DNA of 64,000 bases, taken from NCBI RefSeq assembly GCF_001865575.2, contig NZ_CP017561.2, positions 1,550,001-1,614,000 on the forward strand. Direction: 5' to 3'. This document shows, one piece after another, positions 29,063 through 46,856 of this stretch; position 1 is the first letter of the stretch, and every line of letters starts with the position of its first letter. Source of the stretch: Paraburkholderia sprentiae WSM5005. GTDB taxonomy: Bacteria > Pseudomonadota > Gammaproteobacteria > Burkholderiales > Burkholderiaceae. The translations under genes were made by a program, and so were the position numbers. Below the pieces are notes generated by a model, which was not told the DNA's origin, did not search any database, and was given only the letters and a program-made list of their open reading frames with translations.

Positions 29063-30079
29063 TTAGCTTGCGAGCAGCTCACGCAGTGCGTTGTGGAGCA
29101 CCTCGATATCGACGGGGCTGGTGCCCGGGCCGCCCGCGAAGTGCCCCCAGATCGAATCGACCACGACCAGCTTTGCATGCGGCATATGCTTGACTTCAAA
29201 TTCGCTGTCTTCCGGCGGGAAGTAAAGATCGGTCTTGCAAGGCATGACGATTGCCTTTGCGCGAATCGACGAGAGCGCCTTGACGAAATCGCCTTGGTAA
29301 AGCTCGTTATTGCTGATATCGCCGTTTTGCCACGTCCACAGCATGCCGAGCAGATTGTTTGCGTCCTTCGACAGCAGCCAACCCTCCCAAAAACCGACGA
29401 GAAAGTCTTCCAGCGAGGAATAGCCGAGCTTCTCGAGATCGAACTTCTCGCGATAAAACGCTTGCGACAATCCCCATCCCGCATAAACTCGTGCCGCCGC
29501 GCGCAGCCCTTTTTCGGGCTGCGTTTCGTACCAGCCGTCAAGAAATGCGGCGTCGGCGGTGAGCGCTGCCTTGACGCCTTCGAGGAATACAAAGTTGTGC
29601 CTTGAGCATTTCGACGATCCCTGGAACGGCAGAATTCGCTCGACCATGTCCGGATACATCGCACCCCAATGGAACGTTTGCAACGCACCCATCGACCAGC
29701 CCGTGACGAGCGCGATCTTCTCGATGCCGAACAGCTCCGTGACCAGCCGCCATTGCATGCGCACGTTGTCATACGCGGTCACGTTCGGGAAGCGCGCCTT
29801 ACTGTATGGAGCAGGCGTATTGCTCGGGGACGATGAAAGTCCGTTGCAGAACATGTTCGGCACGATGATGAAGTACTTGCGCGGATCAAGTCCCTTATCG
29901 TCGCCAATCAGCCATTCATTCTCGTAATGCTGCCCCGAATACCACGTCGGGTAGATAATCACATTGTCTTTCGCAGCGTTGAGCGTCCCATACGTCTTAT
30001 AGGCCAGTTTTGCGTCGGGGATACGTAACCCGCATTGGAGCTCGATATCGCCGAGAGAATAGATCTCGTAGTCCGACAT
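29063..30079 (-). CDS. alpha/beta hydrolase, MetX-like fold
   Basis: A 338-residue alpha/beta-hydrolase resembling the homoserine O-acetyltransferase (MetX) family. The N-terminus has LAYKTYGTLNAAKDNVIIYP, the nucleophile elbow is GWSMGALQ, the acid is in CKTDLYFPP and the histidine in WGHFAGGPG. The family includes both acyltransferases and plain hydrolases. It is the second gene after the NCS1 permease on the same strand (79 nt gap), transcribed away from amiE. The context suggests processing of an imported amide or related ester or amide, but no substrate can be named. It is not a methionine-pathway gene by context. Confidence 0.75.
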   Translation of the reverse strand: MSDYEIYSLGDIELQCGLRIPDAKLAYKTYGTLNAAKDNVIIYPTWYSGQHYENEWLIGDDKGLDPRKYFIIVPNMFCNGLSSSPSNTPAPYSKARFPNVTAYDNVRMQWRLVTELFGIEKIALVTGWSMGALQTFHWGAMYPDMVERILPFQGSSKCSRHNFVFLEGVKAALTADAAFLDGWYETQPEKGLRAAARVYAGWGLSQAFYREKFDLEKLGYSSLEDFLVGFWEGWLLSKDANNLLGMLWTWQNGDISNNELYQGDFVKALSSIRAKAIVMPCKTDLYFPPEDSEFEVKHMPHAKLVVVDSIWGHFAGGPGTSPVDIEVLHNALRELLAS

Positions 30080-30158: not shown

Positions 30159-31487
30159 TCAAGCGCGATCGGTAGCCACGCCCGCTTTCTTCGTAACCTG
30201 CGCGATCAAGCCGTAGACGATTGCGCTCACTACGAACGCCGATACGGCTGTCGAGAATTCGGGAATCTGTTTTTCCACCGCATACGCTGCCACCGATCCT
30301 ATCGCCCACGCCGCGAACGCTTGAGCGCGCCACTCGCGGTCAATGCCGGCGCGGGGACGGGCCAAATACAGGTCGACGATCACGATTGCCCCGATCGGCG
30401 GGACGATGATGCCCAGCAAAGAGAGCCAGGGAATGAACAGCGCCCAGACGTTGGTTGTGGCCACGGCAATGCCGATGGCGGCCAGGATGACTGCGGCCGT
30501 GCGCATCTTGATGCCGACGATCCTCGACCAGCCGACGGCGGAGTTATAAAGACAGTGTGCACAAACGGAGCCGAGGCTGCAAAAGAGGAAAACGACTGCA
30601 GCCGCGCTCAGCCACGTGTGATGCTGATTCAGCATGTATCCAAACATGTTGTCCATCGCGAACGGTTGCGGATCCGGCAACGCGAGGGCCGCCGTCATGA
30701 TGCCGCCCATCAGCATCGCGTAGCAGTTCGCGAACGGAAAGGCCGTGAACGTCGCGATCCATGAATCGCGACCATTCTTCGCCCAGCGATTGAAGTCGGC
30801 CGAGACTGTGCCGGCATCGACAAAAAGACTGATCACGATTGTCAATCCAACGCCGAATGCCATCGACGATGCCGGGTGGGTGCCGGTATAAGCAGACACC
30901 GCATGCCATCCCGCATGTTGGGCCGCATCGATTGCCACCCAGGTCCCGAGCACTAGAAAGAGCGGCACCGAAACCATGCCGAGCCAGTGCAGCCCGCGGA
31001 TGCCTACGAAGGTGACCGCAAGATAGAGCACGCCCGCGATCAACGTCATGGCGAGGTAGTTCGCGCCAGACGATGAGTGAATAAGATTACCCGTAATGCC
31101 GGTCTGTACCGCGTACCAGCCGAGCAGCAGGCTTGAAAGCAAGCCCGAAGCCAATGCATAGCCCTTGCGCCCGAAGACCTGACTTGCCAACAGGGCGAAG
31201 TTGAATCCGTGCTTCGCTCCCAGGCCGCCAAGCAAGCCAACATAAGCGAACATCAGGAGGTTGCCGGTGATCATCGCGCTCAGCGCACGCCCGAAACCCA
31301 TTCCCGCGACCAGAATCGAGCCCGTCATCGCACTCGTGATGATCATCGGAAAACTGACCCACACGGTTGCAACCGAGGTCACACTGCGCCGCGCTGTTTT
31401 GGGGACGGGAGCGTGCTCGTACTCTTCGCCGAGCACGTGGTCAAGCGCCGTTTCTCTGCCGATGCCTACTGATTGTGGAGATGACAT
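30159..31487 (-). CDS. NCS1-family permease (CodB-like)
   Basis: A 442-residue inner-membrane transporter of the nucleobase:cation symporter-1 family, with about twelve hydrophobic helices. Markers are TSVATVWVSFPMII, GLGAKHGFNFALLASQVFG, GWYAVQTGITGN, and VDAGTVSADFNRWAKNGRDSW near residue 240. NCS1 proteins take up cytosine, allantoin, hydantoins and similar small nitrogen compounds. The start is ATG 31487 (MSSPQSVG) preceded by GGGAA. A longer frame runs back through the leader and was rejected because it crosses a terminator hairpin. It is divergent from amiE and shares that operon's antitermination-type leader, so it is probably the amide permease of the locus, replacing the AmiS channel of Pseudomonas. 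Confidence 0.88.
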   Translation of the reverse strand: MSSPQSVGIGRETALDHVLGEEYEHAPVPKTARRSVTSVATVWVSFPMIITSAMTGSILVAGMGFGRALSAMITGNLLMFAYVGLLGGLGAKHGFNFALLASQVFGRKGYALASGLLSSLLLGWYAVQTGITGNLIHSSSGANYLAMTLIAGVLYLAVTFVGIRGLHWLGMVSVPLFLVLGTWVAIDAAQHAGWHAVSAYTGTHPASSMAFGVGLTIVISLFVDAGTVSADFNRWAKNGRDSWIATFTAFPFANCYAMLMGGIMTAALALPDPQPFAMDNMFGYMLNQHHTWLSAAAVVFLFCSLGSVCAHCLYNSAVGWSRIVGIKMRTAAVILAAIGIAVATTNVWALFIPWLSLLGIIVPPIGAIVIVDLYLARPRAGIDREWRAQAFAAWAIGSVAAYAVEKQIPEFSTAVSAFVVSAIVYGLIAQVTKKAGVATDRA

Positions 31488-31540: not shown

Positions 31541-31584
31541 AAAAAAAAAGCCCACCAGGCGCCTTTGCAGGCTGCGCGGTGGGC
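31541..31584 (-). terminator. leader terminator before NCS1 permease
   Basis: On the minus strand, GCCCACC pairs with GGTGGGC (plus positions 31578-31584 and 31550-31556), followed by nine U (31541-31549). It lies about 55 nt upstream of the permease start, inside the transcript, so it must be bypassed for expression. Confidence 0.85.
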
Positions 31585-31618
31585 TCTGTTGCCTCTTGCA
31601 TTCGTCGCTGTTGACGAA
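31582..31618 (-). promoter_or_regulatory. twin-hairpin ANTAR-type target before permease
   Basis: Minus strand: hairpin P1 is TTCGTC-AACAGC-GACGAA (31618-31601). Seven nucleotides later, P2 is GGC-AACAGA-GCC (31593-31582), each with a 6-nt loop. The 3' arm of P2 overlaps the 5' arm of the terminator, so the two are mutually exclusive. The same design is present before amiE. Confidence 0.65.
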
Positions 31619-31638
31619 AGGATGTGTTGCTGGACCGA

Positions 31639-31667
31639 AGCATCTGGCAACGAAAAAGGACTGTCAA
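31639..31667 (-). promoter_or_regulatory. sigma70-like promoter of permease operon
   Basis: Minus strand: TTGACA (31667-31662), 17-bp spacer, GATGCT (31644-31639). A start near 31632 would place the twin hairpins about 14 nt into the transcript. Confidence 0.5.
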
Positions 31668-31765
31668 GTCATTTACCATTTCATCATGTTTCATTCAACG
31701 AGTAGCCTGTATCGCGGTTCTCAACCGTCACGTTGCAGCCAAGGCGAGAGACGAATTCTGATTCC

Positions 31766-31794
31766 TTGACAAGCGTTCGCTTGTTTCGTACGCT
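31766..31794 (+). promoter_or_regulatory. sigma70-like promoter of amiE operon
   Basis: TTGACA (31766-31771), 17-bp spacer, TACGCT (31789-31794); predicted start near 31801, 15 nt before the first hairpin. The -10 is weak. The layout matches the divergent promoter. Confidence 0.5.
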
Positions 31795-31815
31795 TGAGCG
31801 CAATGAATGTATCTC

Positions 31816-31859
31816 CTTGTCGCCAACATTGTCGGCAAGAGCGAAAAGGCAATAGAGCC
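31816..31859 (+). promoter_or_regulatory. twin-hairpin ANTAR-type target before amiE
   Basis: P1: CTTGTCGCC and GTCGGCAAG (31816-31824, 31831-31839) pair with one C-T mismatch and close a 6-nt loop AACATT. After 8 nt, P2 is GGC-AATAGA-GCC (31848-31859). P2's 3' arm is also the first three bases of the terminator stem. AmiR, encoded at the end of this operon, is the expected ligand. Confidence 0.65.
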
Positions 31860-31895
31860 CGAACAGACTGATGAGTCTGCTCGGGCTTTTTTTTT
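31857..31895 (+). terminator. leader terminator before amiE
   Basis: GCCCGA (31857-31862) pairs with TCGGGC (31881-31886), with an inner CAGACT/AGTCTG stem and GATG loop, followed by nine T. It lies 30 nt before the amiE ATG and downstream of the promoter: an attenuator, matching the known amiE regulation by AmiR antitermination in Pseudomonas aeruginosa. Confidence 0.9.
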
Positions 31896-31924: not shown

Positions 31925-32962
31925 ATGCGTCATGGTGATATTTCGAGCAGCAACGACTGCGTTGGTGTAGCTGTCGTCAACTACAAAATGCCGCGCCTTC
32001 ATTCGAAGGCTGAGGTACTCGAGAACGCGCGCAAAATCGCCGACATGGTGGTCGGCATGAAGCAGGGTCTGCCCGGCATGGATCTCGTCATCTTCCCCGA
32101 GTATTCGACGCACGGGATCATGTACGACCCGAAGGAAATGTATGAAACGGCTGCCACCGTACCCGGTGCCGAGACCGAGATTTTCAGCGCGGCGTGCCGG
32201 AAAGCCAATGTGTGGGGTGTGTTCTCGCTGACCGGAGAGCAGCACGAAGAACATCCAAGCAAGGCACCGTATAACACGCTTCTGCTCATTAATAACCATG
32301 GCGAGATCGTCCAGAAGTATCGGAAGATCATGCCGTGGACACCGATCGAAGGCTGGTATCCCGGCGACCGTACGTATGTGTCGGAAGGACCGAAGGGAAT
32401 GAAGATCAGCCTCATCATTTGCGACGACGGCAACTACCCGGAAATCTGGCGTGACTGCGCGATGCGCGGCGCCGAACTGATCGTGCGCTGCCAGGGTTAT
32501 ATGTATCCGGCGAAAGAGCAGCAGGTCATGGCCGCAAAGACGATGGCGTGGATGAACAATGTCTACGTCGCAGTGGCGAACGCCACCGGTTTTGATGGTG
32601 TCTATTCGTACTTCGGCCATTCGGCGATCGTCGGTTTCGACGGTCGCACGCTTGGCGAGTGCGGAACGGAAGAAATGGGTATCCAGTATGGCGAACTGTC
32701 TGTCAGCCTGCTGCGCGACGCACGCAAGAACATGCAGTCGCAAAACCATCTCTACAAGCTGGTGCATCGCGGCTATACCGGAAAGATCAATTCGGGCGAG
32801 GACGTCCACGGTGTAGCGGCATGTCCTTACGAGTTCTACACCAAGTGGATCAATGACCCCGAAGGCACGCGCCGCGAGGTCGAAGCCATCACGCGCTCCA
32901 TGCCGGGGACCCCGGAGTGTCCGATCGAAGGCATTCCGCACGCCGATCCGCAACACCGCTAA
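31925..32962 (+). CDS. amiE: aliphatic amidase AmiE
   Basis: Cytoplasmic nitrilase-superfamily amidase hydrolysing short aliphatic amides such as acetamide and propionamide to acid plus ammonia. At 345 residues it is the length of P. aeruginosa AmiE and near-identical over long stretches as I recall it ([11 protein letters not shown] start, [19 protein letters not shown]). The catalytic triad is visible: Glu59 in FPEYS, Lys in KYRKIMPW (about residue 134) and Cys in [14 protein letters not shown] (about residue 166). The ATG at 31925 is preceded by GGAGAG; an in-frame ATG at 31871 lies inside the leader terminator and was rejected. It heads the amiE-AAA-VWA-amiC-amiR operon. Confidence 0.95.
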
Positions 32963-33006: not shown

Positions 33007-33822
33007 ATGCCGATGAAGGATGTCCTCGCGCAATACCGATTGGCGACGGAGCGTTATTACCGGCCGATTGGGCAAGAGATCGAACTATTCGCCGCGGCAC
33101 ACGCGCGGCGCATGCCGATCATCCTGAAAGGCCCGACCGGATGCGGCAAAACGCGCTTCGTCGAGCACATGGCGGCAAGCCTGAACAAGCCCCTCATTAC
33201 GGTCGCATGTAACGAAGATACGACCGCTTCCGATCTCACCGGTCGCTTTCTGCTGCGCGGCGATAGCACTGAATGGCATGACGGACCGCTAACCACGGCG
33301 GTCCGTTATGGTGCGATCTGCTACCTTGATGAAGTCGTCGAGGCGCGTCCCGATACGCTGGTTGTCATTCATCCACTGGCGGATGATCGCCGGGTTCTGC
33401 CGCTCGACAAGCGTGGCGAATTGATTCACGCGCATCCCGACTTTCAGTTGGTCGTGTCATACAACCCCGGATATCAGTCGTTCGGCAAGGAGCTTAAGGC
33501 TTCGACGCGGCAGCGCTTCGGCGCGATCGATTTCCAGTACCCCGACGAGGCGGCCGAGACCGATGTGGTCGCTCATGAGGGCGAAGTCGATCGCGACATC
33601 GCGCTCAAACTCGTGCGTATTGCAACTCAATCGCGCGAGCTCCGCGGTCGAGGCCTGGCTGAGGGCATATCCACGCGCATGCTCGTGCACGCATGCGGCC
33701 TGATTCGAGGCGGAATCGACGCTCATGCGGCCTGTGCGCTCGCCATGACGCGCCCGCTCAGTGACGACGATGAAGTGCAGAGCGCGCTCGACGGCTTTGT
33801 CCGCGCGCAATTCGGAGCTTGA
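33007..33822 (+). CDS. CbbQ/NirQ/NorQ-type MoxR AAA+ ATPase
   Basis: A 271-residue MoxR-group AAA+ ATPase. Walker A GPTGCGKTRFVEH starts near residue 42, followed by ACNEDTTASDLTGRFLL, Walker B in ICYLDEVVEARPD, sensor-1 in VVSYNPGYQS and the CbbQ_C-like tail. This subfamily acts with a VWA partner to activate or mature enzymes such as Rubisco and NO reductase. It sits between amiE and the VWA gene. In P. aeruginosa the corresponding slot holds amiB, a ClpX-like ATPase, so this may be a functional replacement. The ATG at 33007 follows AAGGAACG. The client is unknown; the amidase or a membrane transporter are candidates. Confidence 0.87.
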   Translation: MPMKDVLAQYRLATERYYRPIGQEIELFAAAHARRMPIILKGPTGCGKTRFVEHMAASLNKPLITVACNEDTTASDLTGRFLLRGDSTEWHDGPLTTAVRYGAICYLDEVVEARPDTLVVIHPLADDRRVLPLDKRGELIHAHPDFQLVVSYNPGYQSFGKELKASTRQRFGAIDFQYPDEAAETDVVAHEGEVDRDIALKLVRIATQSRELRGRGLAEGISTRMLVHACGLIRGGIDAHAACALAMTRPLSDDDEVQSALDGFVRAQFGA

Positions 33823-33827
33823 TTCCG

Positions 33828-35582
33828 ATGCCCGCGGAACGGATGGGTAACGAAAGCGGGTCGGCGATGCAAGGCGTCGTCGACGCATCGTTCACCGCAG
33901 CGACGCGGATGCTTGAATGCTATGCAGCCGGATTCGGGCAGTGGGATGTCGACGCAATGGAGGCGCGAAAAGAACCTGCGCCGACACGCGTCTGTGTGCA
34001 GACCGAGCGGCTCGACGAACTCGGCGGCGGCGCATTACGAACGTCGATCGGCGAAGGTGGCGTGATCCGCGTTGCGCCAGCCGTCGATGAGGGCAGCGAG
34101 CGCTCTGGCGCGGCGCGCCTATATCAAGCTTCGGTGGCCCATGCGCTGGCGCATTTGCGCTATTCGCGTCCCGCTTCGCCGATCGGCAAGCGGGGAGCGT
34201 TAAGGATTGCGGTGGCGTCGTTGATCGAGGATGCTCGTGTCGAGCGCTTGTTGATGCGTGATTACCCGGGCCTGCACAGCTTGTGGGGTGCGTTTCATAC
34301 GGCATCGGGCGAACTCGGTATGTTGACCTTCTCGTCACTGGCGGCTCGCCTGGCGCGCGCGTTGCATGATGTCGGCTACGAGGATCCGAACGAATGGGTC
34401 TGTAAAGGCCGGAGACTTTTCGACGCCATTGCCGCGCATCACGACGATATGGCCGCCTGTCACGAAGTTGCCGACATACTGGCCGTTGACCTTGCGCAGA
34501 TGCGCGTGAGGTTCGATGTATCGTCGTACCGCACTGAGCCGCGGTACCGCGACGACAACAGTTATTTGTGGACGACCGAGTCGGAACCGGTGCATGCACG
34601 AATGGAACCGGCCCCCGATGCGACCGACCGGACCATGGCGCGGCCGAACGCGGCGGACAACATGCGCCTACTCGACAATCCGCCCATCGAGACTGAAGCC
34701 TGGCGTGCTTATAGATATCCAGAGTGGCACTCACGAGTAGGGCTCCTTTTACCCGATTGGACCTGCGTCTACGACCGCGCGCCGGCCGCGGAACCTCTGA
34801 GCGAGAGCGAGCGTGCCGACGCTGGACTACTCGCCGTCCGGCGAGCGTTGCCATCCGGTTGGCAGCGATCGCCCACGCGCCTTCGCCGCCGATCCGAAGG
34901 TCCTGAGCTCGATCTCGACGCGCTCATCGATGATCGCATCGCCCGACGCATGGGTGCGGCCGGCGATGGAAGAATCTTCGAACAAAAGCGGCGCACGCCG
35001 CCAAGCATGTCCGTACTGTTTCTGCTCGATTTGTCCACGTCGACAAACGACAGAATCGGCGTAACACAACAGACCGTGCTCGATATCGAAAAAGAGGCCG
35101 CTGCGACGATCGCGTCCGCGCTGGAGCCGACGGCCACACGCGTTGCACTGCACGGGTTTTCGTCAAACGGGCGTCACGATGTCCGATACACGCGAGTCAA
35201 GGATTTCGACGAACCGTTTGGCAAAGCGCAGCGAGAGCGGCTGCTAGCACAGAAAGGCGCATTGTCGACACGCATGGGCGCGGCGTTGCGACATGCGGCA
35301 GCGCAGTTCGATGAAGAGCAAAGCGAGGCGAAGCTATTGGTGCTCGTCACTGACGGCGAGCCGTCGGACGTGGATGTCCACGACTCCATGCATCTGATCG
35401 AAGACGCCCGCCACGCGGTATCGGCTCTATCATCGCGCGGGATCTTGCCGTTTTGTTTCGCATTCGATCGCGATGGGCACCGGTATGTCCGGACCATCTT
35501 CGGTCCCGGCCATTACCTCGTACTGAATGGCGCCGGGAACCTCGCCCAGCAGGTCAGCAAGGTGCTCGCAAGCTTGAGGTGA
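33828..35582 (+). CDS. CbbO/NorD-type VWA-domain protein
   Basis: A 584-residue protein with a C-terminal von Willebrand factor A domain. The MIDAS metal site is visible as LLDLSTSTND near residue 405 and the later VTDGEPSDVDVHD. The N-terminal half contains ALAHLRYSRPAS and IEDARVERLLMRDYPGL, as in NorD and CbbO. It is the expected partner of the AAA ATPase immediately upstream. The start is ATG 33828, 5 nt after the ATPase stop; a TTG at 33819 overlapping it is the alternative. No membrane segment is apparent. A probable activase complex inside the amidase operon. Confidence 0.85.
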   Translation: MPAERMGNESGSAMQGVVDASFTAATRMLECYAAGFGQWDVDAMEARKEPAPTRVCVQTERLDELGGGALRTSIGEGGVIRVAPAVDEGSERSGAARLYQASVAHALAHLRYSRPASPIGKRGALRIAVASLIEDARVERLLMRDYPGLHSLWGAFHTASGELGMLTFSSLAARLARALHDVGYEDPNEWVCKGRRLFDAIAAHHDDMAACHEVADILAVDLAQMRVRFDVSSYRTEPRYRDDNSYLWTTESEPVHARMEPAPDATDRTMARPNAADNMRLLDNPPIETEAWRAYRYPEWHSRVGLLLPDWTCVYDRAPAAEPLSESERADAGLLAVRRALPSGWQRSPTRLRRRSEGPELDLDALIDDRIARRMGAAGDGRIFEQKRRTPPSMSVLFLLDLSTSTNDRIGVTQQTVLDIEKEAAATIASALEPTATRVALHGFSSNGRHDVRYTRVKDFDEPFGKAQRERLLAQKGALSTRMGAALRHAAAQFDEEQSEAKLLVLVTDGEPSDVDVHDSMHLIEDARHAVSALSSRGILPFCFAFDRDGHRYVRTIFGPGHYLVLNGAGNLAQQVSKVLASLR

Positions 35583-35713: not shown

Positions 35714-36871
35714 GTGGCAAATACCGAAACGATCAAAGTGGGCGTTCTGTTTTCCGAGACGGGTGTGATGTCGGCGATCGAGTCGTCGCAGCTTTACGGA
35801 ACGCTTTTCGCAATACGCGAGATCAATGAGGCAGGGGGCATCGGAGGGCGCGAACTCGTGCCGATCCACCATGACCCCGCCTCCGATCCCGCGAAATATC
35901 GCATGTTTGCGGAACGGCTCATTCTGGCAGAAGATGTTCAGGTCATTTTCGGTTGCTATATGTCGAGCGCGCGAAAGGCCGTATTGCCGATTGTGGAGCG
36001 CTGCAATCGGCTGCTTTTCTACGCCACGCTCTACGAAGGCTTTGAGTTCTCCGATAACGTCATCTATACCGGTGCAGCGCCCAATCAGAACAGTGTGCAG
36101 TTGGCCGATTTCATGACGTCCAACTTTGGTGCGCGCGTCTATCTCGTCGGATCGAATTACATCTATCCCTACGAGTCGAACCGCATCATGTCTGACCTCG
36201 TGTCGCAATACCGGGGTGGCGTGAAGTTGGGCGAACGGTACGTCCGCCTTGGTGCCACGGAAGACGATTTCGCCGCAATCGTCGAAGACATTCGCGCGGC
36301 ACGGCCTGATTTCATTTTCTCCACGGTGGTCGGCGACGCAACGCGGCACTTTTATCGCGCCTATGCGCGAGCCGGCCTCGATCCGGCATCGATGCCGATC
36401 GCGAGCCTGACGACCTCGGAAGTGGAAGTCGCCCAAATGGGCACGGACGTCGCCGAAGGTCACTTTACTGCGGCGCCTTACTTTCGCTCGATCGACTCTG
36501 CGGGCAATCTTGCCTGTCTGGAGAAATTCGGCCGGATGTTCGGCTCCGAAACGATTCCGAACGCGAGCTGGGAGGCGGCGTACTTTCAAGTTCATCTTTT
36601 TGCGCAGGCCATGCGGGCCGCCGGCTCGCCCGAGCTTGAAACGCTCATGCCGGAATTGCTGCGCTGCGAACTGGACGCGCCGCAGGGACGCGTCAAGATC
36701 GATCCGTCGACTCACCACACGTATCTGAATCCGCGTATCGGCCGGGTCAATGGCGAGGGACAATTCGACGTTGTGTGGCAAGCCGTCGCCCCTGTACGGC
36801 CGGACCCGTATCTCGTCGCGCATACGCTCGGCGACTGGATGGGTTCAACGATGAGCTGGAGCAGTGAATGA
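35714..36871 (+). CDS. amiC: AmiC-type cytoplasmic amide sensor
   Basis: A 385-residue type I periplasmic-binding-protein fold that, like AmiC of P. aeruginosa, has no signal peptide and is therefore a cytoplasmic ligand sensor. Matching landmarks are GVLFSETGVMSAIE, DPASDPAKYR, FGCYMSSARKAVLPIVE, ATLYEGFEFSDNVIY, APNQNS, and the SLTTSEVEVAQMGTDVAEG block, then WEAAYFQ and DAPQGRVKID. It is expected to hold AmiR inactive until an amide binds. The start is GTG 35714. Its last codons overlap amiR (ATGA), ensuring coupled translation. A weak 4-bp hairpin with seven T lies at 35606-35629. Confidence 0.9.
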   Translation: MANTETIKVGVLFSETGVMSAIESSQLYGTLFAIREINEAGGIGGRELVPIHHDPASDPAKYRMFAERLILAEDVQVIFGCYMSSARKAVLPIVERCNRLLFYATLYEGFEFSDNVIYTGAAPNQNSVQLADFMTSNFGARVYLVGSNYIYPYESNRIMSDLVSQYRGGVKLGERYVRLGATEDDFAAIVEDIRAARPDFIFSTVVGDATRHFYRAYARAGLDPASMPIASLTTSEVEVAQMGTDVAEGHFTAAPYFRSIDSAGNLACLEKFGRMFGSETIPNASWEAAYFQVHLFAQAMRAAGSPELETLMPELLRCELDAPQGRVKIDPSTHHTYLNPRIGRVNGEGQFDVVWQAVAPVRPDPYLVAHTLGDWMGSTMSWSSE

Positions 36872-37509
36872 ACGACGAAGAGGAAGCCGGCCGAGGCGTG
36901 CCGGCGCCGGCTCTCCCCATCTCTCACTTGCTGATGGATTTGCGGTCACTGCGCGTGTGCGTGTTTCATCCGCACGACCGCGACGGTGCGCAGCTTACCC
37001 AGCAGCTGCAGCGCATCGGCTGCCACGTGCAGGCGTTCTGGCCGCCGCTGGCTTCCGCACCGGCAGGCACCGACGTCGTTTTCTTCGCCTTGTTTCCGGA
37101 CATCCTGGACCTCATTGACGATTGGTGCACGGACGACGACGCACCACCGTCGATTGCCGTTCTCAACTATGAGAACCCGACGCTCATCGAGGCGATGCTG
37201 CACATCGACGCAAAAGCCGTCGTTACGTCGCCCATCCGGTCGTTCGGTCTCCTCAGTGCGCTCGTCCTTGCACGCGAGCTCGGGCGGGAGCGCAGGAAAC
37301 TGCGCAAGCGCATCATGCGTCTCGAAGAAAAGCTCGGTAGCGCGCGCAAAGTCGCGGAAGCACAGGAGATACTCTGCCGCCAGCGCGGCGTCAACAAGGC
37401 CGAGGCCTATCGCATCATGCGCGAGCAGGCGATGGCCAAGCGGATGACGGTAGAGGACATCGCTTCCGCGCTTATCAACGCGAACGACATTCTGTCGTCA
37501 GGCCGCTGA
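36868..37509 (+). CDS. amiR: AmiR-type ANTAR antiterminator
   Basis: A 213-residue RNA-binding regulator. The N-terminal pseudo-receiver (about residues 22-140) lacks a phosphorylatable layout. It is followed by a coiled coil rich in Arg, Lys and Glu (RERRKLRKRIMRLEEKLG) and the C-terminal ANTAR domain (AQEILCRQRGVNKAEAYRIMRE, then AMAKRMTVEDIASALI). It resembles P. aeruginosa AmiR, which binds the amiE leader RNA and prevents termination when released from AmiC. It overlaps amiC by 4 nt. Its likely targets are the two leaders at 31541-31618 and 31816-31895. Confidence 0.9.
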   Translation: MNDEEEAGRGVPAPALPISHLLMDLRSLRVCVFHPHDRDGAQLTQQLQRIGCHVQAFWPPLASAPAGTDVVFFALFPDILDLIDDWCTDDDAPPSIAVLNYENPTLIEAMLHIDAKAVVTSPIRSFGLLSALVLARELGRERRKLRKRIMRLEEKLGSARKVAEAQEILCRQRGVNKAEAYRIMREQAMAKRMTVEDIASALINANDILSSGR

Positions 37510-37669: not shown

Positions 37670-38584
37670 TTACTGCGTGGTCTGCGGTGTGACCAGATTC
37701 AACGCCATGCGCGCGGCCGTGGTCCGAGTCTCCACGCCCAGCTTTGCGAAGACGTGTTCCAGGTGTTTGTTGGCCGTGCGCGGGCTCATACCGAGGATAT
37801 CGGCGATATCGCGATTGGTCTTGCCGACAGCGACCCAATACAGCACATCGGCTTCGCGAGGGGTCAGCCGGAACGCCTGCATCAACGCGGCGGGTCCGGG
37901 CGAACCGGGCTTGGACTGGATCACCAGCAGTTCCTCGCCGTGAGCGCCGCGACGCGGTCGGCTGACTATCAGTTGTTCCGTTGCGGTCAGCAACTCGAAC
38001 GGTCCGACCTCGGGCGCCCGCAGCGCCTCCTGGAGCCAACTGCACAATGCCGCCGGCAAGCGACCCTGGGCGTCGAGCGAGCCGCGTAGCCGCGCCTGGG
38101 CAAGCGGCGTCAGCCAGAGCACTTCGCCGCTGGGGCCCACGGCGACCACAGCCTGGCCGGCCGCATCCATCGCCGCACGGGTCTGCACGACCTGGCGCGA
38201 ATTGCGCAGATGCGACGCGATGCGCACCATCACTTCCGCGGGACGGATCGGCTTCGTGATGTAATCGACACCACCCGCCTGGAAGCCCTGCAGAACATGC
38301 TCGGTCTCCGTCAGCCCGGTCATGAATATCACCGGAATCGGACGGGTCTCGAGGTCTTCCTTGAGCCGTCGACAGGTCTCGAAGCCGTCGATACCGGGCA
38401 TCAGCGCATCGAGGAGAATCAAATCCGGCGGCAAGCGGCGCGCGCGATCCAATGCCCCGGCGCCGTCGGTTGCCACCAGCACCGTATAGCCCGATTTGTC
38501 GAGCAGGCTGTGCAGGATGGACAGGTTTTCGGGCGCGTCGTCAACAATTAGAACGACATCGCGAAGCGGATCGGGGCGTAGCAT
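37670..38584 (-). CDS. LuxR-family response regulator
   Basis: 304 residues. The N-terminal receiver (acidic DD in VLIVDDAPEN, Asp in LILLDALMPGIDG, Lys in YITKPIRP) is intact. A linker of about 85 residues resembling a PAS module follows, then a C-terminal LuxR helix-turn-helix (FRLTPREADVLYWVAVGKTNRDIA, then LGMSPRTANKHLEHVFAKLGV). The ATG at 38584 lies 44 nt inside the end of the hybrid kinase gene, so the two are co-transcribed and translationally coupled. It is the likely output regulator for the fused permease-kinase and may bind the inverted repeat at 42320-42374. Confidence 0.9.
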   Translation of the reverse strand: MLRPDPLRDVVLIVDDAPENLSILHSLLDKSGYTVLVATDGAGALDRARRLPPDLILLDALMPGIDGFETCRRLKEDLETRPIPVIFMTGLTETEHVLQGFQAGGVDYITKPIRPAEVMVRIASHLRNSRQVVQTRAAMDAAGQAVVAVGPSGEVLWLTPLAQARLRGSLDAQGRLPAALCSWLQEALRAPEVGPFELLTATEQLIVSRPRRGAHGEELLVIQSKPGSPGPAALMQAFRLTPREADVLYWVAVGKTNRDIADILGMSPRTANKHLEHVFAKLGVETRTTAARMALNLVTPQTTQ

Positions 38585-41500
38585 CGGAGTGGGCCTGCAA
38601 GGTTCGGTCAAGGTGTCGCACATATTCAGCCAGATCGAAGCGCTCGACGTGCGCGCGCAAAACGCCGGTGAAAACGCCATAGGACGGGTCGAGCTGGTCG
38701 ATTTCCTCGAGCTTGTCGAGGATGCCGCGCACGTACCCAAGGCTGCCCAACTCGTGCAGACTGCGCAGCAGTTCGGGGCCGGGCAGCGCCGCCTTGGTCG
38801 GCAGGGGCGAGGGCGCGGCGGCGAGTGACAGGTCGACCGACGGTGTCTGCGCCGCTACAGCGGACGTTGCCGGGACCCATCGCAGGTCAAGGCGCTCGCG
38901 GATCAATTCGAGCAGTTCCACCACATTGACAGGCTTCACGAGAAAATCCTCGTTGCGAATGCCCGCGGCGTTTTTGCGGCCCTTGTCGAAGGCATTGGCG
39001 GAGACGACGATGATCGGCGCATTGCTCATCAAGTTGGCGCGAAACAGACGCGCGGTTTCCCAGCCGTCCAGCAGCGGCATGCCGATATCGAGCAGAATCA
39101 GGTCGGGCGCGAACGACGAGACGGCCTTCAGTGCCTCGAGCCCGGAGCTTGCTTCCTGAACCTCGAAGCCCAGCGGTTCGAGCAACTTGACGTGCAGCTC
39201 ACGGTCCACCCGTTCGTTGTCTACCACCAGCACCCGCCGCGTCGGACCGGCGTAGCCGCCTATGGGCAGTTTCGGGACGGCTTGAACCGGCTGCGGCTCG
39301 CGTACTTCCGGTAAGAACAGCTGGACGCGAAAGGTGCTTCCGCGGCCGATCTCGCTGTCGACGGTGAGGGTGCCTCCCATGACGTCAGCGAGCATTTTGG
39401 CGATGGTCAGGCCTAGCCCTGTGCCATTTTCCGAGCCGCCCGGGACATTGCCGCCGCGCTGGAACGGCAAAAAGATGCGAGTCAAGTCATCGGCATCGAT
39501 GCCCATGCCTGAATCGATGATTTCGAAGACCGCCATCTCCCGGCGGTATTGCAACCGCAGCGTAACGTTGCCGCGATCGGTGAACTTCACCGCGTTGCCC
39601 AGAACGTTGATGAGGATCTGGCCCACCCGCTTTTTATCGGCGCGCACCGCGCAGGGCAAATTGGGAGGAGCTTCGTAATGGAAGGCGATGCCTTTTGCGC
39701 TTGCCTGCAAGCTCACCATGTCGGCCAACTGCGAGACGAATTCGGGAAAACGGACTTCCTCGAATTCCAGCGTCATTTTGCCGGTCTCGATTTTGGCGAT
39801 ATCGAGCAACCCGTCGATCAACGATACAAGGTGTTCGCCGCTGCGGCGGATCACCGCCAGCGCGAGATGGTGGTGTGGGGGAATGGACATATCCTGCTCG
39901 AGCATCTGCGCATAGCCGAGAATGCTGTTTAGCGGCGTGCGCAGTTCGTGGCTGATGCCGGTAACGTAGCGGCTCTTTGCCAGATTGGCTTTTTCGGCTG
40001 TCTGCTTGGCACGCTGCAACTGCGCATCGGTGCGCTGATGGGCGTCGATTTCCTCGAGCAGCAGATGCGTCTGCCGATTCGATTCCTCTTGCGCAACGCG
40101 CCGGCTTTCGGACGTCAGCACGCTCCACCAACAACCAATCCCGCTCGCGAGCGCCAGTACCGCAAACAGTTTCAGGAATGCCGTGCGCAGCAGCACATCA
40201 ACGGCCGGCGAGAGTTGGTCGACAAGCACCGACTCCTGCGTATAGATCAGGCCGAGAATGGCGGCCATGATCATGGTCACCAGCAGGAACAGCAGCAGGT
40301 ATTGGCCGATGCGGGTATTGAAACGGGTTGACAGGGCCTTGGGCAAAAGCCAGCGTATCGTCGCACTGGTTTGTTCGGATAGCCGTGCGCCCGGTTTGCA
40401 CATGTCATGGCAGCGCGCATCCACCGTGCAGCATAAAGAGCAGATGGAACCTTCATAAGCCGGGCAGTGCGCCATGTCTTCAGTTTCGTACGCCTTGTCG
40501 CAAATGCAGCAACGAATCGACTGATAGCCTTTGCCCAGTGGAACCCCGGCGAACGCAACCGGTTGGCGCGCGATGTAGTATTTGCCACCGGTCGCCCAGG
40601 CAATCGCCGGCGCGGCAATCAGAGCGGTGGTGAGCGCGATCAGCGCCGAAAACGCGTGGGCGGTCTCCCCCAGCACGTGAGTAAACGCCAGCACCGACAG
40701 CGACGAGGCAATCAGTGTCGCGCCGACGCCCACCGGATTGACATCGTACAAATGCGCGCGCTTGAACTCGATGCCCTTTGGGCTCAGGCCAAGCGGTTTG
40801 TTGATCACCAGATCAGCCACTACCGCACCGACCCAGCTGATCGCGATATTCGCATACAGCCCGAGTACTTGTTCGAGCGCGCGGAATACGCCCAGCTCCA
40901 TGAGCATGAACGCGATCAGCACATTGAACACAAGCCACACCACGCGACCCGGGTGGCTATGCGTCAGCCGCGCGAAGAAGTTCGACCATGCGAGCGATCC
41001 CGCGTAGGCGTTGGTCACATTGATCTTGAGTTGCGACAGGACGATGAAGAACGTGGTGACCAACAGCGCGCATTCCGGCGAACCGAACAAATACTTGTAC
41101 GCAACCAGGTACATCTGGGTCGGCTCGACCGCGCGGTCGGGCGACACGCCATGCCGAATCGCGAGCACCGCGAGGAAAGACCCGCCGAGCAGCTTGGCTA
41201 CGCCGAGAACGATCCAGCCTGGGCCGGCGCTCAGCATGCTCAAAGTCCAGCGGCGCTTGTTGAGCGAGGTCCGCTCGGGCAGAAAGCGAAGAAAGTCGAC
41301 CTGCTCTCCTACCTGCGCGATCATCGAAGTGAGCACCGTCGTGGCGGTGCCGAACATCAGCAGGTCGAAGTGTCCATGCCCGCCGGCGTTGCCGCCGAAG
41401 CTGGGCAACGCTCGCAATAAGCCCGGCTCTTTCCAGATCACGGCCGCATAAGGCAGCATCAGCAACACGAGCCACAGTGGCTGGGTGACGGCTTGCAGGC

Positions 41501-42050
41501 GGCTGATCAGCGTAATGCCGTGGGTGACGAGCGGGATCACGATGACTGCGCAGATCAGATAACTCAGTGAAAGGGGAATCCCAAAGTACAACTGCAACGC
41601 CATCGCCATGATGGTGGCTTCCAGCGCGAAGAAAATGAACGTGAACGACGCGTAGATCAGCGATGTGACGGTCGAGCCGATGTACCCGAACCCGGCGCCG
41701 CGGGTCAGCAGATCCATGTCGACGCCGAACTTCGCTGCGTAATAGCTGATCGGCAGGCTCGTCAGAAAAATGATCGCGCCGACAAGCACGATGGCCCAAA
41801 GCGCGTTGGTGAAGCCGAAACTGACGGTGATCGAGCCGCCAACCGCTTCGAGCGCCAGAAACGAGATCGCGCCAAACGCCGTATTGGCTACCCGGAACTC
41901 GGACCACTTGCGAAACGTGCGTGGCGTGAAACGCAGCGCATAGTCTTCGATGGTTTCGTCGGCGACCCAGGTGTTGTAATCGCGCCGCACCTTGATGATG
42001 CGCTGCACGGGTGTTGCGCGGGGGACCGCGGGTTCGGGAGACTGGTTCAC
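38541..42050 (-). CDS. NCS1 permease-fused hybrid histidine kinase
   Basis: A protein of about 1169 residues joining a transporter to a two-component kinase. Residues about 50-500 form a complete NCS1-type permease with about twelve helices (DYNTWVADETIEDYALRFTP at the entry, then MDLLTRGAGFGYIGS, INVTNAYAGSLAWSNF). A cysteine cluster with nine Cys follows at about 514-552 (RCCICDK ... HCPAYEGSICSLCC ... CHDMCK). Two more membrane helices precede the phosphoacceptor helix GISHELRTPLNS at about 700. N-box NVLGNAVKF, G-boxes and a receiver at about 937-1050 (Asp in LILLDIGMP, Lys in FLVKPVN) come next. A C-terminal helical tail of about 115 residues ends the protein. GTG 42050 is my start; an ATG at 42116 is possible. 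It is divergent from the urt/fmd operon. Confidence 0.88.
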   Translation of the reverse strand: MNQSPEPAVPRATPVQRIIKVRRDYNTWVADETIEDYALRFTPRTFRKWSEFRVANTAFGAISFLALEAVGGSITVSFGFTNALWAIVLVGAIIFLTSLPISYYAAKFGVDMDLLTRGAGFGYIGSTVTSLIYASFTFIFFALEATIMAMALQLYFGIPLSLSYLICAVIVIPLVTHGITLISRLQAVTQPLWLVLLMLPYAAVIWKEPGLLRALPSFGGNAGGHGHFDLLMFGTATTVLTSMIAQVGEQVDFLRFLPERTSLNKRRWTLSMLSAGPGWIVLGVAKLLGGSFLAVLAIRHGVSPDRAVEPTQMYLVAYKYLFGSPECALLVTTFFIVLSQLKINVTNAYAGSLAWSNFFARLTHSHPGRVVWLVFNVLIAFMLMELGVFRALEQVLGLYANIAISWVGAVVADLVINKPLGLSPKGIEFKRAHLYDVNPVGVGATLIASSLSVLAFTHVLGETAHAFSALIALTTALIAAPAIAWATGGKYYIARQPVAFAGVPLGKGYQSIRCCICDKAYETEDMAHCPAYEGSICSLCCTVDARCHDMCKPGARLSEQTSATIRWLLPKALSTRFNTRIGQYLLLFLLVTMIMAAILGLIYTQESVLVDQLSPAVDVLLRTAFLKLFAVLALASGIGCWWSVLTSESRRVAQEESNRQTHLLLEEIDAHQRTDAQLQRAKQTAEKANLAKSRYVTGISHELRTPLNSILGYAQMLEQDMSIPPHHHLALAVIRRSGEHLVSLIDGLLDIAKIETGKMTLEFEEVRFPEFVSQLADMVSLQASAKGIAFHYEAPPNLPCAVRADKKRVGQILINVLGNAVKFTDRGNVTLRLQYRREMAVFEIIDSGMGIDADDLTRIFLPFQRGGNVPGGSENGTGLGLTIAKMLADVMGGTLTVDSEIGRGSTFRVQLFLPEVREPQPVQAVPKLPIGGYAGPTRRVLVVDNERVDRELHVKLLEPLGFEVQEASSGLEALKAVSSFAPDLILLDIGMPLLDGWETARLFRANLMSNAPIIVVSANAFDKGRKNAAGIRNEDFLVKPVNVVELLELIRERLDLRWVPATSAVAAQTPSVDLSLAAAPSPLPTKAALPGPELLRSLHELGSLGYVRGILDKLEEIDQLDPSYGVFTGVLRAHVERFDLAEYVRHLDRTLQAHSDATPRSASRCRSNC

Positions 42051-42319
42051 CAAATTGTCCGGAATCGGGCTGTGGTTAAAGCGAAGCAGCCAAGAGTTGC
42101 AAGGCGCATGCCACATGTACGCGGCGCGTGATGCAGTCATCAGCGTGCAGCACTCCGCGCGAGCGCGCACGCGCGGCGCAGACTCAAAGCGGTGCGCGAC
42201 GCATCCCAAATGTCGCATTGGCGCACCGCCACAGCGCGCCCCGTCACGTTGATCGCCAGGCCGTGGCCTACGCCACGCTTGCCCGCGTCGAGCATAGCGA
42301 TGTGTGCCCGACCTGCCGA

Positions 42320-42526: not shown

Positions 42527-43822
42527 ATGACACAACGCTTCGACGACAACGGCGACGACCAAGCTGGCGAATCATCCGCCCGCGCAGTGCAACTCGCTTC
42601 TCCGGGCCGCCGCAAAGTCGCACTGACACTTGCTTCTCTGCCGCTTGCGATGATGGTCAAGCCATCGTTCGCTGCTGCTCCGCCGACTTCGCAAGTCAAC
42701 ACGACGGGCAGGGCGATCACGGATACGACGGTGACGGTCGGTCAGCTGCATTCGTCGACCGGCACGATGGCGATCAGCGAGACCGGATCGATCCGCGCCG
42801 AACGCCTCGCGATCGAACAGATCAACGCGATGGGCGGCGTGCTTGGCCGCCAGATCAAGGTGATCCGGGAAGACGGCGCCAGCGACTGGCCGACCTTTGC
42901 CGAAAAGGCGACCAAGCTGCTCGAAAGCGACAAGGTTGCCACGGTGTTCGGCTGCTGGACCTCAGCGTCGCGTAAAGCCGTGCTGCCGGTCTTCGAAAAA
43001 GACAATGGCCTGCTGTACTACCCGACCTTTTACGAAGGCCTCGAGCAGTCGAAAAACGTCTTCTATACCGGCCAGGAAGCGACCCAGCAAGTGCTGGCCA
43101 GCCTGAGCTGGTTCGCCAAGGAGAAGAAGGCCAAGACTTTCTATCTCATCGGCTCCGACTACATCTGGCCGCGCACCTCCAACAAGATCGCCCGTAAGCA
43201 CATTGAAAACGTGCTGCATGGCGAAGTGGTCGGCGAAGAGTACTACCCGCTCGGCAATACCGAGTTCGGTTCGCTTATCAACAAGATGAAGTTCAAGAAG
43301 CCGGACGTGATTTTCGCGGACGTGGTGGGCGGCAGCAATGTCGCGTTCTACAAGCAACTGAAGGCTGCCGGCGTGACAGGCGACAAGCAGCTGTTGCTGA
43401 CCATCTCGGTGACCGAAGATGAGCTGCTGGGTATCGGTGGCGAAAACTTCGAGGGCTTCTACTCGTGCATGAAGTATTTCCAGAGCCTGGACAACCCTGC
43501 CAACAAGAAATTCGTTGCGGCGTTCAAGGCCAAATATGGCAAGGACGCGGTGATCGGTGACGTGACTCAGGCCGCGTACCTCGGCCCATGGCTCTGGAAG
43601 ATGGCCTGCGAGAAAGCCGGCAGCTTCGACGTCAACAAGGTCGTGGCGGCTTCGCCGGGTCTGGAGTTCAAGGATGCGCCAGAAGGCTACATCAAGGTTC
43701 ACCCGAATCACCACCTGTGGAGCAACACGTTGATCGGCCAGGGCCAGCGCGATGGTCAATTCAAGGTTGTCTACAAGTCGGACTTGATTGAACCGAATCC
43801 GTTTCCGAAGGGCTATCAATAA
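42527..43822 (+). CDS. urtA: ABC transporter substrate-binding protein, urea/amide type
   Basis: A 431-residue periplasmic binding protein of the UrtA/FmdD family, for urea or short-chain amides. A long leader with GRRKVALTLASLPLAMMV precedes AAAPP, which could be a Tat- or Sec-type signal. The mature part begins TVTVGQLHSSTGTMAISE and includes FGCWTSASRKAVLPVFE, YYPTFYEGLEQSKNVFYTG, GSDYIWPRTSN, and VHPNHHLW near the end. It is a paralogue of the AmiC-type protein but exported. Formamidase downstream favours formamide or related amides over urea, as in the fmd cluster of Methylophilus. The 476-nt upstream gap carries the inverted repeat. Confidence 0.87.
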   Translation: MTQRFDDNGDDQAGESSARAVQLASPGRRKVALTLASLPLAMMVKPSFAAAPPTSQVNTTGRAITDTTVTVGQLHSSTGTMAISETGSIRAERLAIEQINAMGGVLGRQIKVIREDGASDWPTFAEKATKLLESDKVATVFGCWTSASRKAVLPVFEKDNGLLYYPTFYEGLEQSKNVFYTGQEATQQVLASLSWFAKEKKAKTFYLIGSDYIWPRTSNKIARKHIENVLHGEVVGEEYYPLGNTEFGSLINKMKFKKPDVIFADVVGGSNVAFYKQLKAAGVTGDKQLLLTISVTEDELLGIGGENFEGFYSCMKYFQSLDNPANKKFVAAFKAKYGKDAVIGDVTQAAYLGPWLWKMACEKAGSFDVNKVVAASPGLEFKDAPEGYIKVHPNHHLWSNTLIGQGQRDGQFKVVYKSDLIEPNPFPKGYQ

Positions 43823-43941
43823 AACTGAGCATCATCGCCGGCGGCGGCCATGGTTGGCGCCGGCGGGAATCGCAAGTCGATATTGCACTTTTCGATGTTC
43901 AACACCGCCTGCTCGAACGCAGGCCGCGCAGGGGATTGACC

Positions 43942-44859
43942 ATGGCTTGGTTCTCGCAGTTCGGCGCGATCGTCGCTATGCAGGGCTTCAACGGCCTCTC
44001 GGTATTCAGCGTCTTGCTGCTGATGGCGCTCGGTCTGGCTATCATCTTCGGGCAGATGGGCGTGATCAATATGGCGCATGGCGAGTTTTTGACGATCGGC
44101 GCCTACACGACTTATGTGTTGTCGGCCTTGACACACAAATATGCGCCGGCACTGCAACCTGTCTATTTCTTTGCGGCCATCGTGGCCGCGTTCGCGGTTG
44201 CTTTCGCCTTCGGCTACCTGGTGGAATGGCTGCTGATTCGCCATCTATACCGGCGTCCACTCGACACCCTGCTGGCGACCTGGGGCCTGTCGCTTGCCAT
44301 GCAGCAAACGTTTCGTTCGGTGTTCGGCTCACAGGAAGTCAGTCCGGATCTTCCGCAATGGCTAATGGGTTCACTATCGCCCTATCAGGGCCTCGACATC
44401 CCGATCAACGGCCTGATGGTGATGGTCCTTACCGTGATGCTCACGGCGATCCTGCTGCTGTTTCTGTATAAATCGCATTGGGGTGTGACGGTGCGGGCTA
44501 CCACCCAGAACCGGATCATGGCCGGCGCCGTCGGGATCAACACCGGCAAAGTCGACCGCCTGACCTTTGCGCTCGGATGCGGGATTGCCGGCATAGCAGG
44601 CGCGGCCTTCACTACCGTGGGCTCGACGGGTCCGACAAGCGGTTCGCTGTATATCGTGGACACCTTCCTGACCGTGGTATTCGGCGGCGCGCAAAGCCTC
44701 TTCGGCACGATTGCCTCCGCGTTCTCGATCGCCCAGACCCAGTCAACCACAGAGTTCTTTCTGTCTGGCTCAATGGCGAAAGTGCTGACCTTGTCAGCCG
44801 TTATCGTCATTTTGATGCTACGTCCGCAAGGTCTTTTCGCACCGAAAGTGCGGCGCTAA
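43942..44859 (+). CDS. urtB: ABC permease, UrtB type
   Basis: A 305-residue inner-membrane permease of the branched-chain amino acid/urea family (LivH-like). About eight hydrophobic helices; markers are LGLAIIFGQMGVINMAHGEFLTIGAY, TLLATWGLSLAMQQ, and the coupling region RATTQNRIMAGAVGINTGKVD near residue 195. The start is ATG 43942; a TTG six nucleotides upstream is not needed. It forms the channel with the next gene product. Confidence 0.9.
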   Translation: MAWFSQFGAIVAMQGFNGLSVFSVLLLMALGLAIIFGQMGVINMAHGEFLTIGAYTTYVLSALTHKYAPALQPVYFFAAIVAAFAVAFAFGYLVEWLLIRHLYRRPLDTLLATWGLSLAMQQTFRSVFGSQEVSPDLPQWLMGSLSPYQGLDIPINGLMVMVLTVMLTAILLLFLYKSHWGVTVRATTQNRIMAGAVGINTGKVDRLTFALGCGIAGIAGAAFTTVGSTGPTSGSLYIVDTFLTVVFGGAQSLFGTIASAFSIAQTQSTTEFFLSGSMAKVLTLSAVIVILMLRPQGLFAPKVRR

Positions 44860-44882
44860 CTGTTCGATCGCAGGAGAAAGCA

Positions 44883-46028
44883 ATGAATTCGGGATCTCTC
44901 AAGTGGCTGGGTGGGCGCTCCGGTGTGATGGGGTTCGTCTGGCTGGGTCTTCTGATACTGGTGCTGCTGCCGTTGACGCTGGACATTTTCAGGCTGAACC
45001 TGGTGGGCAAATACCTCACCTACGGGTTCGTGGCGATAGGACTGACGCTGTGCTGGGGCTACGGCGGGATCCTCAGCCTGGGGCAGGGCGTGTTCTTCGG
45101 TCTGGGCGGCTACTGCATGGCCATGTTCCTGAAGCTGGAAGCATCGGATCCGGTCAGTACGAAGATCCAGTCCACGCCGGGAATTCCAGACTTCATGGAC
45201 TGGAATCAGATTACCCATCTGCCGCTGATGTGGGAACCATTCAGGCACTTCTGGTTCGCTATCGCCGCGGTGCTGGTGATACCGGCTCTGCTTGCGTTTG
45301 TCATCGGTCTCGCCATGTTCAAACGACGCGTCGGCGATGTGTACTTCGCGATTGTGACTCAGGCGATTGCCGCCATTCTGTCTATCCTGATCATCGGGCA
45401 GCAGGGGCTGACCGGTGGCGTGAACGGTATAACCGATCTGCGCACGGTGCTCGGCTGGGACATCCGCACGACTTCGGCGCACTACGTCCTGTACTTCGTC
45501 AATGCCGGCCTGCTGTTCCTGTGCATCGCGTTTGGCAAGTTTCTCCTGTCGAGCAAGCTCGGCAAGCTGCTGGTGGCGATGCGCGACAAGGAGGAGCGGG
45601 TACGTTTCTCAGGCTATGACGTTGCGGCCCTGAAGATCTTCGTGTTCTCGGTCGCCGCCGTGTTCTCCGCCATCGGCGGCGCGATGTTTTCGCTGCAGGT
45701 CGGCTTCATGTCTCCGTCGTTCGTGGGCATCGTTCCGTCGATCGAGATGGTGATCTTTTGCGCCGTGGGGGGCCGCACATCCTTGTTTGGTGCAGTCTAC
45801 GGCGCGTTGCTGGTGAATTTCGGCGAGTCGTATTTTTCGGAATCGTTCCCACAACTGTGGCTATTCCTGATGGGGGCGCTCTTCATCGGTGTGGTGATGT
45901 TCTTCCCGAATGGCCTCGCTGGTCTTTATGAAAGTCATGGCAAGCAACTGCTTGCACGCTTATCGGTGAGCGGCTATCTGAAGCGTCGCGCGCTCGTGAC
46001 GCTGCCGGCTTCCGATCCCGAGGCCTGA
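44883..46028 (+). CDS. urtC: ABC permease, UrtC type
   Basis: A 381-residue permease (LivM-like) with about ten helices. It shows GFVAIGLTLCWGYGGILSLGQGVFFGLGGY near the N-terminus, GQQGLTGGVNGITDL, the coupling motif MRDKEERVRFSGYDV, and VGFMSPSFVGIVPSIEMVIF. The UrtC signatures with the long SDPVSTKIQSTPGIPDFMDW loop favour the urea/amide branch over the amino-acid branch. The ATG at 44883 is preceded by AGGAGAAAG; 23 nt separate it from urtB. Confidence 0.9.
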   Translation: MNSGSLKWLGGRSGVMGFVWLGLLILVLLPLTLDIFRLNLVGKYLTYGFVAIGLTLCWGYGGILSLGQGVFFGLGGYCMAMFLKLEASDPVSTKIQSTPGIPDFMDWNQITHLPLMWEPFRHFWFAIAAVLVIPALLAFVIGLAMFKRRVGDVYFAIVTQAIAAILSILIIGQQGLTGGVNGITDLRTVLGWDIRTTSAHYVLYFVNAGLLFLCIAFGKFLLSSKLGKLLVAMRDKEERVRFSGYDVAALKIFVFSVAAVFSAIGGAMFSLQVGFMSPSFVGIVPSIEMVIFCAVGGRTSLFGAVYGALLVNFGESYFSESFPQLWLFLMGALFIGVVMFFPNGLAGLYESHGKQLLARLSVSGYLKRRALVTLPASDPEA

Positions 46029-46059
46029 CGCAGGTCTATCCGCAAAAACAGAGAACACC

Positions 46060-46803: not shown

Positions 46804-46856
46804 AGCGCGATCGCGTAGCGCCCGAACGGCAACTTGGCATTCAAAAGGAACAGTTT

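Follow-up and report, generated by a model that had tools for sequence, protein, structure and literature searches.

We examined the ami locus of Paraburkholderia sprentiae WSM5005 in a stretch of 64,000 nucleotides (hereafter the window). Two divergent operons, one headed by the amidase gene amiE and the other by an NCS1-type permease gene, each lie behind a leader with two hexaloop hairpins (P1 and P2) and an overlapping intrinsic terminator. We consider it likely that AmiR switches both operons through these attenuators, with a changed contact to the fourth base of the RNA loops. Judging from sequence comparison, the way in which this base varies with ANTAR residue 160 (EutV numbering, here and below for residues 142 to 177) is a probable natural change of the RNA-recognition code.

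Genes and outward-facing leaders of the ami locus

On the forward strand, we identified the aliphatic amidase gene amiE (31925..32962; NF009802, 707 bits, cut-off 427), an AmiB-like AAA ATPase of the CbbQ/NirQ/NorQ type (33007..33822; AAA_5 and CbbQ_C domains) and a VWA-domain protein, the likely partner of the ATPase (33819..35582; PF00092). They are followed by amiC (35714..36871), whose product, related to binding proteins of the UrtA type (PF13433; TIGR03407 at 333 bits, under its cut-off of 492.75), is likely to sense amides. This gene lies directly upstream of amiR, with a four-base overlap. AmiR (36868..37509) combines AmiR_N and ANTAR domains (116.7 and 39.1 bits, both above the curated cut-offs), and its closest counterpart among the four named loci compared was that of Paraburkholderia podalyriae (97% identical). 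The reverse strand holds the NCS1-type permease gene (30159..31487; PF02133, and NF008241 at 205 bits, under the cut-off of 326) and a gene for a MetX-like alpha/beta hydrolase (29063..30079; NF005757, 550 bits, cut-off 332). The permease open reading frame as listed begins at 31694, upstream of the leader, and runs through it; the start compatible with the leader is the ATG at 31487 (442 amino acids).

Within the 437 bases from the permease start (31487) to the amiE start (31925), each operon has a promoter-like site and an attenuator, which face outward. On the amiE side (forward strand), the promoter-like site (31766..31794) consists of TTGACA (31766-31771), a 17-nt spacer and the -10 box TACGCT (31789-31794). 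It is followed by P1 (31816..31839, loop AACATT), P2 (31848..31859, GGC-AATAGA-GCC, -2.8 kcal/mol alone) and the terminator (31857..31895), made of a hairpin (31857-31886, -21.6 kcal/mol) and nine T, or U in the RNA. On the permease side (reverse strand), the promoter-like site (31639..31667) has TTGACA (31667-31662), a 17-nt spacer and GATGCT (31644-31639); P1 (31601..31618, loop AACAGC), P2 (31582..31593, GGC-AACAGA-GCC, -3.0 kcal/mol alone) and the terminator (31541..31584; hairpin 31584-31550 at -24.5 kcal/mol, then nine U) come after it. The -10 boxes are poor in both promoters, and the linker between P1 and P2 measures 8 nt in the amiE leader and 7 nt in the permease leader. The 3' arm of P2, GCC (31857-31859 for amiE, 31584-31582 for the permease), is also the start of the 5' arm of the terminator; P2 and the terminator are thus predicted to exclude each other, as they do in ANTAR leaders already published. 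This common layout had been described in an earlier, sequence-only reading of the window, down to the TTGACA with a 17-bp spacer, the six-base loops, the linkers of 7-8 nt, the P2 sequence GGC-AAYAGA-GCC, the nine U and the sharing of the P2 arm, and direct reading of the sequence confirmed it and its coordinates. The P2 stems of only three pairs, also remarked on there, are the rule across our leader alignment.

Published ANTAR targets are defined by two hairpins with six-base loops and stems of at least three pairs, by A1 and G4 in both loops and by a second hairpin that overlaps an intrinsic terminator. Both leaders have all of these features (loops AACATT, AATAGA, AACAGC and AACAGA) except G4, which is A in all four loops. 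In the amiE P1, a C-U mismatch lies below the closing C-G pair and the minimum-energy fold adds two pairs within the loop, giving a tighter loop than a hexaloop, so its hexaloop is assigned by comparison with relatives.

We searched for such leaders with a scanner that requires two hairpins with A-starting hexaloops and an overlapping terminator and that is blind to loop base 4. At a score of at least 28, it returned 48 matches in 1.58 Mb of AmiR-type loci (including some stretches counted twice) versus 1 in block-shuffled sequence. TTGACA was present 20-110 nt upstream of the P1 loop in 29 of 79 scanner matches, a set that takes in every match scoring at least 26 and hence a few doubtful or repeated ones, compared with 24 of 1580 random 90-mers.

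Covariation was assessed in 55 aligned leaders, which were picked partly for their stems, so that the test is inflated and not fully independent: 87.4% of the pair cells were standard, 10 of the 11 pairs changed on both sides, and double-change cells numbered 141, against 42.7 in shuffles. Controls with a slid structure fell far below the true leader structure, and one of the five measures, the number of further pair types, showed no excess (28 vs 28.1 in shuffles). The closing C-G pair of P1 and A1 were invariant across the 55 leaders; the pair beneath that closing pair was non-standard in 29 of them. Covariation in P1 and P2, proposed earlier as a check on the leaders, was therefore found, with the reservation on how the leaders were chosen. 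A covariance model of the family scored the amiE leader at 36.1 bits and the permease leader at 30.0 bits within the window, where the next site reached 13.3. Across the 7.8 Mb of the genome, no more than three sites scored at least 30 bits (next 23.7): the two leaders and, at 39.6 bits, the one that goes with a second AmiR system, which lies on another contig; since all three were seed members of the model, the telling point is the absence of other sites.

These searches also bear on whether the leaders could be plain terminators or genes for small RNAs that take no part in antitermination, a reading to which we give very little credence. An Rfam search at low thresholds returned only sub-threshold matches to unrelated families at the same places (the best at 21.6 bits, cut-off 50), and such weak matches would fit that reading, but AmiR loci of several families conserve the two-hairpin anatomy, and the genome has nothing comparable elsewhere.

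Proposed shared control of the amidase and permease operons

We found the divergent layout at four distinct loci among those compared (the window, L055, L035 and L087; L numbers denote loci), and both leaders were present in all four. The hosts include P. podalyriae (L055) and P. silvatlantica (L056, which coincides with L035), and P. aromaticivorans carries one copy on a plasmid (L087). Four further genomes have permease and MetX on the same strand as the ami genes, in two cases behind leaders: L183/L152 and L189/L069 (L152 and L069 lie on the same contigs as L183 and L189, respectively) have the order leaders, permease, metX, urtABCDE, amiE, ATPase, VWA, amiC, amiR, with one extra open frame in L183 that separates the permease from the last leader. 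The remaining two (L162 and L163) have the order permease, metX, amiC, amiR, leader, urt genes, amiE, ATPase, VWA; the detected leader is behind amiR and hence the permease genes are not downstream of it. In other genomes, the leader precedes urtA or amiE.

The number of leaders also varied. L183 carries three GGC-A-loop-GCC boxes in series (forward strand, 317, 476 and 817), each with a terminator-like stem and the middle one with no clear P1, and the permease of L189 has two full leaders ahead of it, spaced by about 480 bases (reverse strand, 6732 and 6249). Several urt operons of relatives have such leaders, unlike the urtABCDE operon of the window with its formamidase-like gene (42665-49059, forward strand), for which we found no convincing leader (the best site just upstream scored 7 bits).

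The presence of permease and MetX genes with ami genes and leaders in other genomes makes shared control well supported at the sequence level, and with it the earlier proposal that a single AmiC-AmiR pair would switch both operons as one regulon: both leaders of the window are A4 and that of the second AmiR system is G4, the divergent loci L055, L087 and L035 keep both leaders, and those of L183 and L189 precede the permease, MetX and urt genes. We infer that the permease and MetX genes are old neighbours of AmiR. The pair probably split from a longer ami cluster along with a leader in this clade, so that import and hydrolysis would stay under one switch.

It seems improbable to us that the amiE leader is the sole target of AmiR and that the permease leader answers to another ANTAR protein or is a plain terminator. 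The genome does have four ANTAR matches (one being L001), the P1 hairpins of the two leaders have different stems and loops that diverge in their 3' half, and the permease genes of L162 and L163 are not behind a detected leader. However, A4 occurs in both loops of both leaders; the other AmiR-like proteins of the genome are L054, with Lys149/Glu160 and a G4 leader of its own, and L111, with Ser149/Glu160 and Thr172; and in L183 and L189 the leaders precede permease and MetX within the ami cluster. Control of both operons by the AmiR of the window remains our preferred reading.

Loop base 4 and ANTAR residue 160

Characterised ANTAR targets carry A1 and G4 (PMC3369931), and the main published target search retained both bases. 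In the EutV-RNA structure, G4 stacks on Tyr164, bonds to Arg142, Lys149 and Glu160 and is described as the sole base-specific contact; binding is about 60-fold weaker in E160A and about 8-fold weaker in R142A (PMC8934654). Asn173 and Arg177 make backbone contacts, and a triple mutant combining their changes with R175A lost binding. Mapping through a PDB alignment placed AmiR A159, Q166, K177, Y181 and M189 at EutV R142, K149, E160, Y164 and M172. The AmiR of the window thus has Ala159/Gln166/Lys177 in place of the G4-bonding set Arg142/Lys149/Glu160, and residues identical to EutV at Tyr164, Arg168, Met172 and Arg175. At EutV Asn173 and Arg177 it has Ala and Thr; the AmiR of Pseudomonas aeruginosa has Lys and Pro there, so these positions vary within AmiR.

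We collected 134 AmiR open reading frames in 133 loci (E <1e-9), of which 95 had Met172, and 69 of these could be paired with a leader. The link between base 4 and residues 149/160 was proposed first and more genomes were added after; the focus on residue 160 came later. With Glu160, P1 base 4 was G in 40 of 41 pairs and A in one; with a non-acidic residue (K, R, A, I, N or H), it was A in all 22; with Asp160, it was split (2 G vs 4 A). In the 33 rows added after the link was proposed, Glu160 went with G in 14 of 15, non-acidic residues with A in 13 of 13 and Asp with A in 4 of 5. P2 base 4 was A in all 28 rows without Glu160, and G, A and T in 23, 17 and 1 of the 41 rows with it. Some loops differ at base 4 alone: AACATT with Lys160 and AACGTT with Glu160 (L150), AATATT with Asp160 and AATGTT with Glu160 (L088). 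A shift of the loop register was ruled out because loops identical except for base 4 occur in both classes.

Before counting, we dropped L056 (same place as L035), L115 and L116 (Thr172 class, P1 base 4 G), L175 (a chance-like match) and L193 (AmiR absent from the stretch; G4, which fits the rule), and L169, which repeats L067, was counted once. Entries for L039, L046, L048 and L052 were set by eye and not by the scanner, and for L039, L040, L041, L067, L068, L069, L135, L136, L137, L152 and L155 the leader was joined by hand to an AmiR elsewhere on the same contig.

Column 160 ranked first of the 186 AmiR columns by raw mutual information and also by z; for column 149 the two ranks were 14th and third, respectively. 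In a likelihood test of dependent evolution, column 160 was again first (of 163; LR 21.2, p 0.0003), with columns 149 and 142 twelfth and thirteenth. Over all rows, coding the residue as acidic or as Glu160 gave LR 18.8 to 21.2 (p 0.0009 to 0.0003); removal of seven doubtful rows gave LR 26.1 with the Glu160 coding and 15.9 (p 0.003) with the acidic one. The AmiR tree, a quick build with long branches and many weak forks, required at least three changes between acidic and non-acidic 160, six between Glu and not Glu, and five in P1 base 4. An independent-pairs sign test yielded 2 pairs on starred branches and 6 on all branches, too few for significance.

A4 thus tracks an ANTAR residue whose EutV counterpart contacts base 4. 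The sequence-only reading had called the loops a lineage-specific variant of the A1/G4 target: the variant stood, with A4 in four of four loops, and its restriction to one lineage did not, as A4 is also found in other families. The change of the base-4 contact probably arose more than once in AmiR evolution. A fuller account, towards which we lean with some reserve, is that residue 160, helped by 149, sets base 4 (Glu for G, a non-acidic residue for A), that this setting flipped several times and that orthogonal pairs coexist without cross-talk. Two simpler rules failed. Residue 149 as sole determinant was rejected on Ile149 or Thr149 with Glu160 and still G4 (L138, L053, L052) and on Lys149 with Asn160 and A4 (L154), and treating Asp160 like Glu160 failed in 4 of the 5 later rows.

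Alternatively, AmiR would control both operons with base 4 relaxed, and A4 and residue 160 would have drifted by shared ancestry with the code unchanged. The mixture of G, A and T at P2 base 4 in Glu160 systems fits this account, as do the few independent switches on the tree, the one Glu160 row with A4 in P1 and the mixed Asp160 rows; actinobacterial ANTAR RNAs also have G4 in a majority only (>50%; PMC8164766). Against it, P1 base 4 hardly varies inside either the Glu or the non-acidic class, and column 160, a known base-4 contact, comes out best of the columns tested with and without correction for descent. We hold such relaxation to be rather unlikely and favour the changed contact.

Some genomes carry both classes. 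That of the window has the A4 system described here and the G4 system L054 (loops AAAGAC/ACAGAA), and the L035 genome likewise has L048, with Lys149/Glu160 and, by eye, the P1 loop AAAGGC. The change of code may insulate paralogous AmiR systems within one genome. The exception among Glu160 rows was L155/L188, with Lys149 and Glu160 yet the loop AACAAA (A4); this leader precedes tubulin-like genes and may answer to another regulator. In L188 (reverse strand, 3581-7493), the ANTAR-type leader is followed by two tubulin-like genes (Tubulin_2) and, after these, by a second gene each for the AmiB-like ATPase and the VWA protein.

Finally, no leader was found at the 26 other Met172 AmiR loci, two of them duplicates and some near contig ends or lacking the far upstream part. 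Among the 35 AmiR open reading frames with Thr at position 172, we found no leader in 33 and candidates only at L115 and L116; the RNA target of this class may therefore differ. In EutV, replacement of Met172 by Ala abolishes RNA binding.

Proposed switch and comparison with characterised systems

By default, the leader RNA would fold into the terminator and transcription would stop ahead of amiE and of the permease gene. An amide bound by AmiC would release AmiR, whose ANTAR domains would bind the P1 and P2 hexaloops; P2, once held, would withhold its 3' arm from the terminator, and both operons would be transcribed. The protein-RNA contact would be altered in this lineage, with A4 for G4 and Gln and Lys for EutV Lys149 and Glu160, and would keep this AmiR off the G4 leader of the second AmiR of the genome.

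The amiE/AmiC-AmiR system of P. aeruginosa is similar in its amidase operon, AmiC sensor, ANTAR protein AmiR and two-hairpin leader overlapping a terminator. It differs in A1 and G4 in both loops, as its leader is described in PMC3369931, vs A4 here, and in the Lys149/Glu160 of its AmiR (1qo0), vs Gln and Lys; the window also adds a second, divergent permease-MetX operon with its own leader. Enterococcus faecalis EutV and the eut leaders share the dual hexaloop motif before terminators, the use of several leaders by one ANTAR protein, and Tyr164, Arg168, Met172 and Arg175. EutV differs in its need for G4, which Arg142, Lys149 and Glu160 hold (PMC8934654); the AmiR of the window has other residues at these three positions and also at Asn173 and Arg177. 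In Klebsiella oxytoca, the nasF leader, bound by NasR, likewise has two stem-loops with a closing C-G pair and hexaloops; NasR differs in carrying its NIT sensor domain within the same protein and in G4 vs A4, and its SELEX preference is for A1 and G4 (PMC7496416). Actinobacterial ANTAR RNAs also have dual hexaloop stem-loops in which position 4 is not always G, and differ in that they are described as controlling translation as well as transcription; the available part of that study gives no link between base 4 and a protein residue (PMC8164766). Our literature search, mostly outside subscription journals, found no report of an AmiR-controlled NCS1 permease, nor one that links A4 in ANTAR targets to a residue of the protein.

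If the residue and the base do change together, searches that demand G4 would miss whole regulons such as the ami locus. Base 4 and residue 160 would then form a two-letter code, testable by swaps, and would offer naturally insulated antiterminator-leader pairs for gene circuits. Shared control would also place the permease and the MetX-like hydrolase in the amide regulon.

Beside the ami genes, the window encodes a 1225-aa protein (38541-42218, reverse strand) with an NCS1-permease-like N-terminal part (NF008241 on residues 61-560, E 1.8e-7, far under the cut-off) fused to a hybrid histidine kinase; we would guess that it is a transporter-kinase sensor for a nitrogen compound. Its gene adjoins that of a LuxR-type response regulator, and L087 has a relative (53%) next to urtA.
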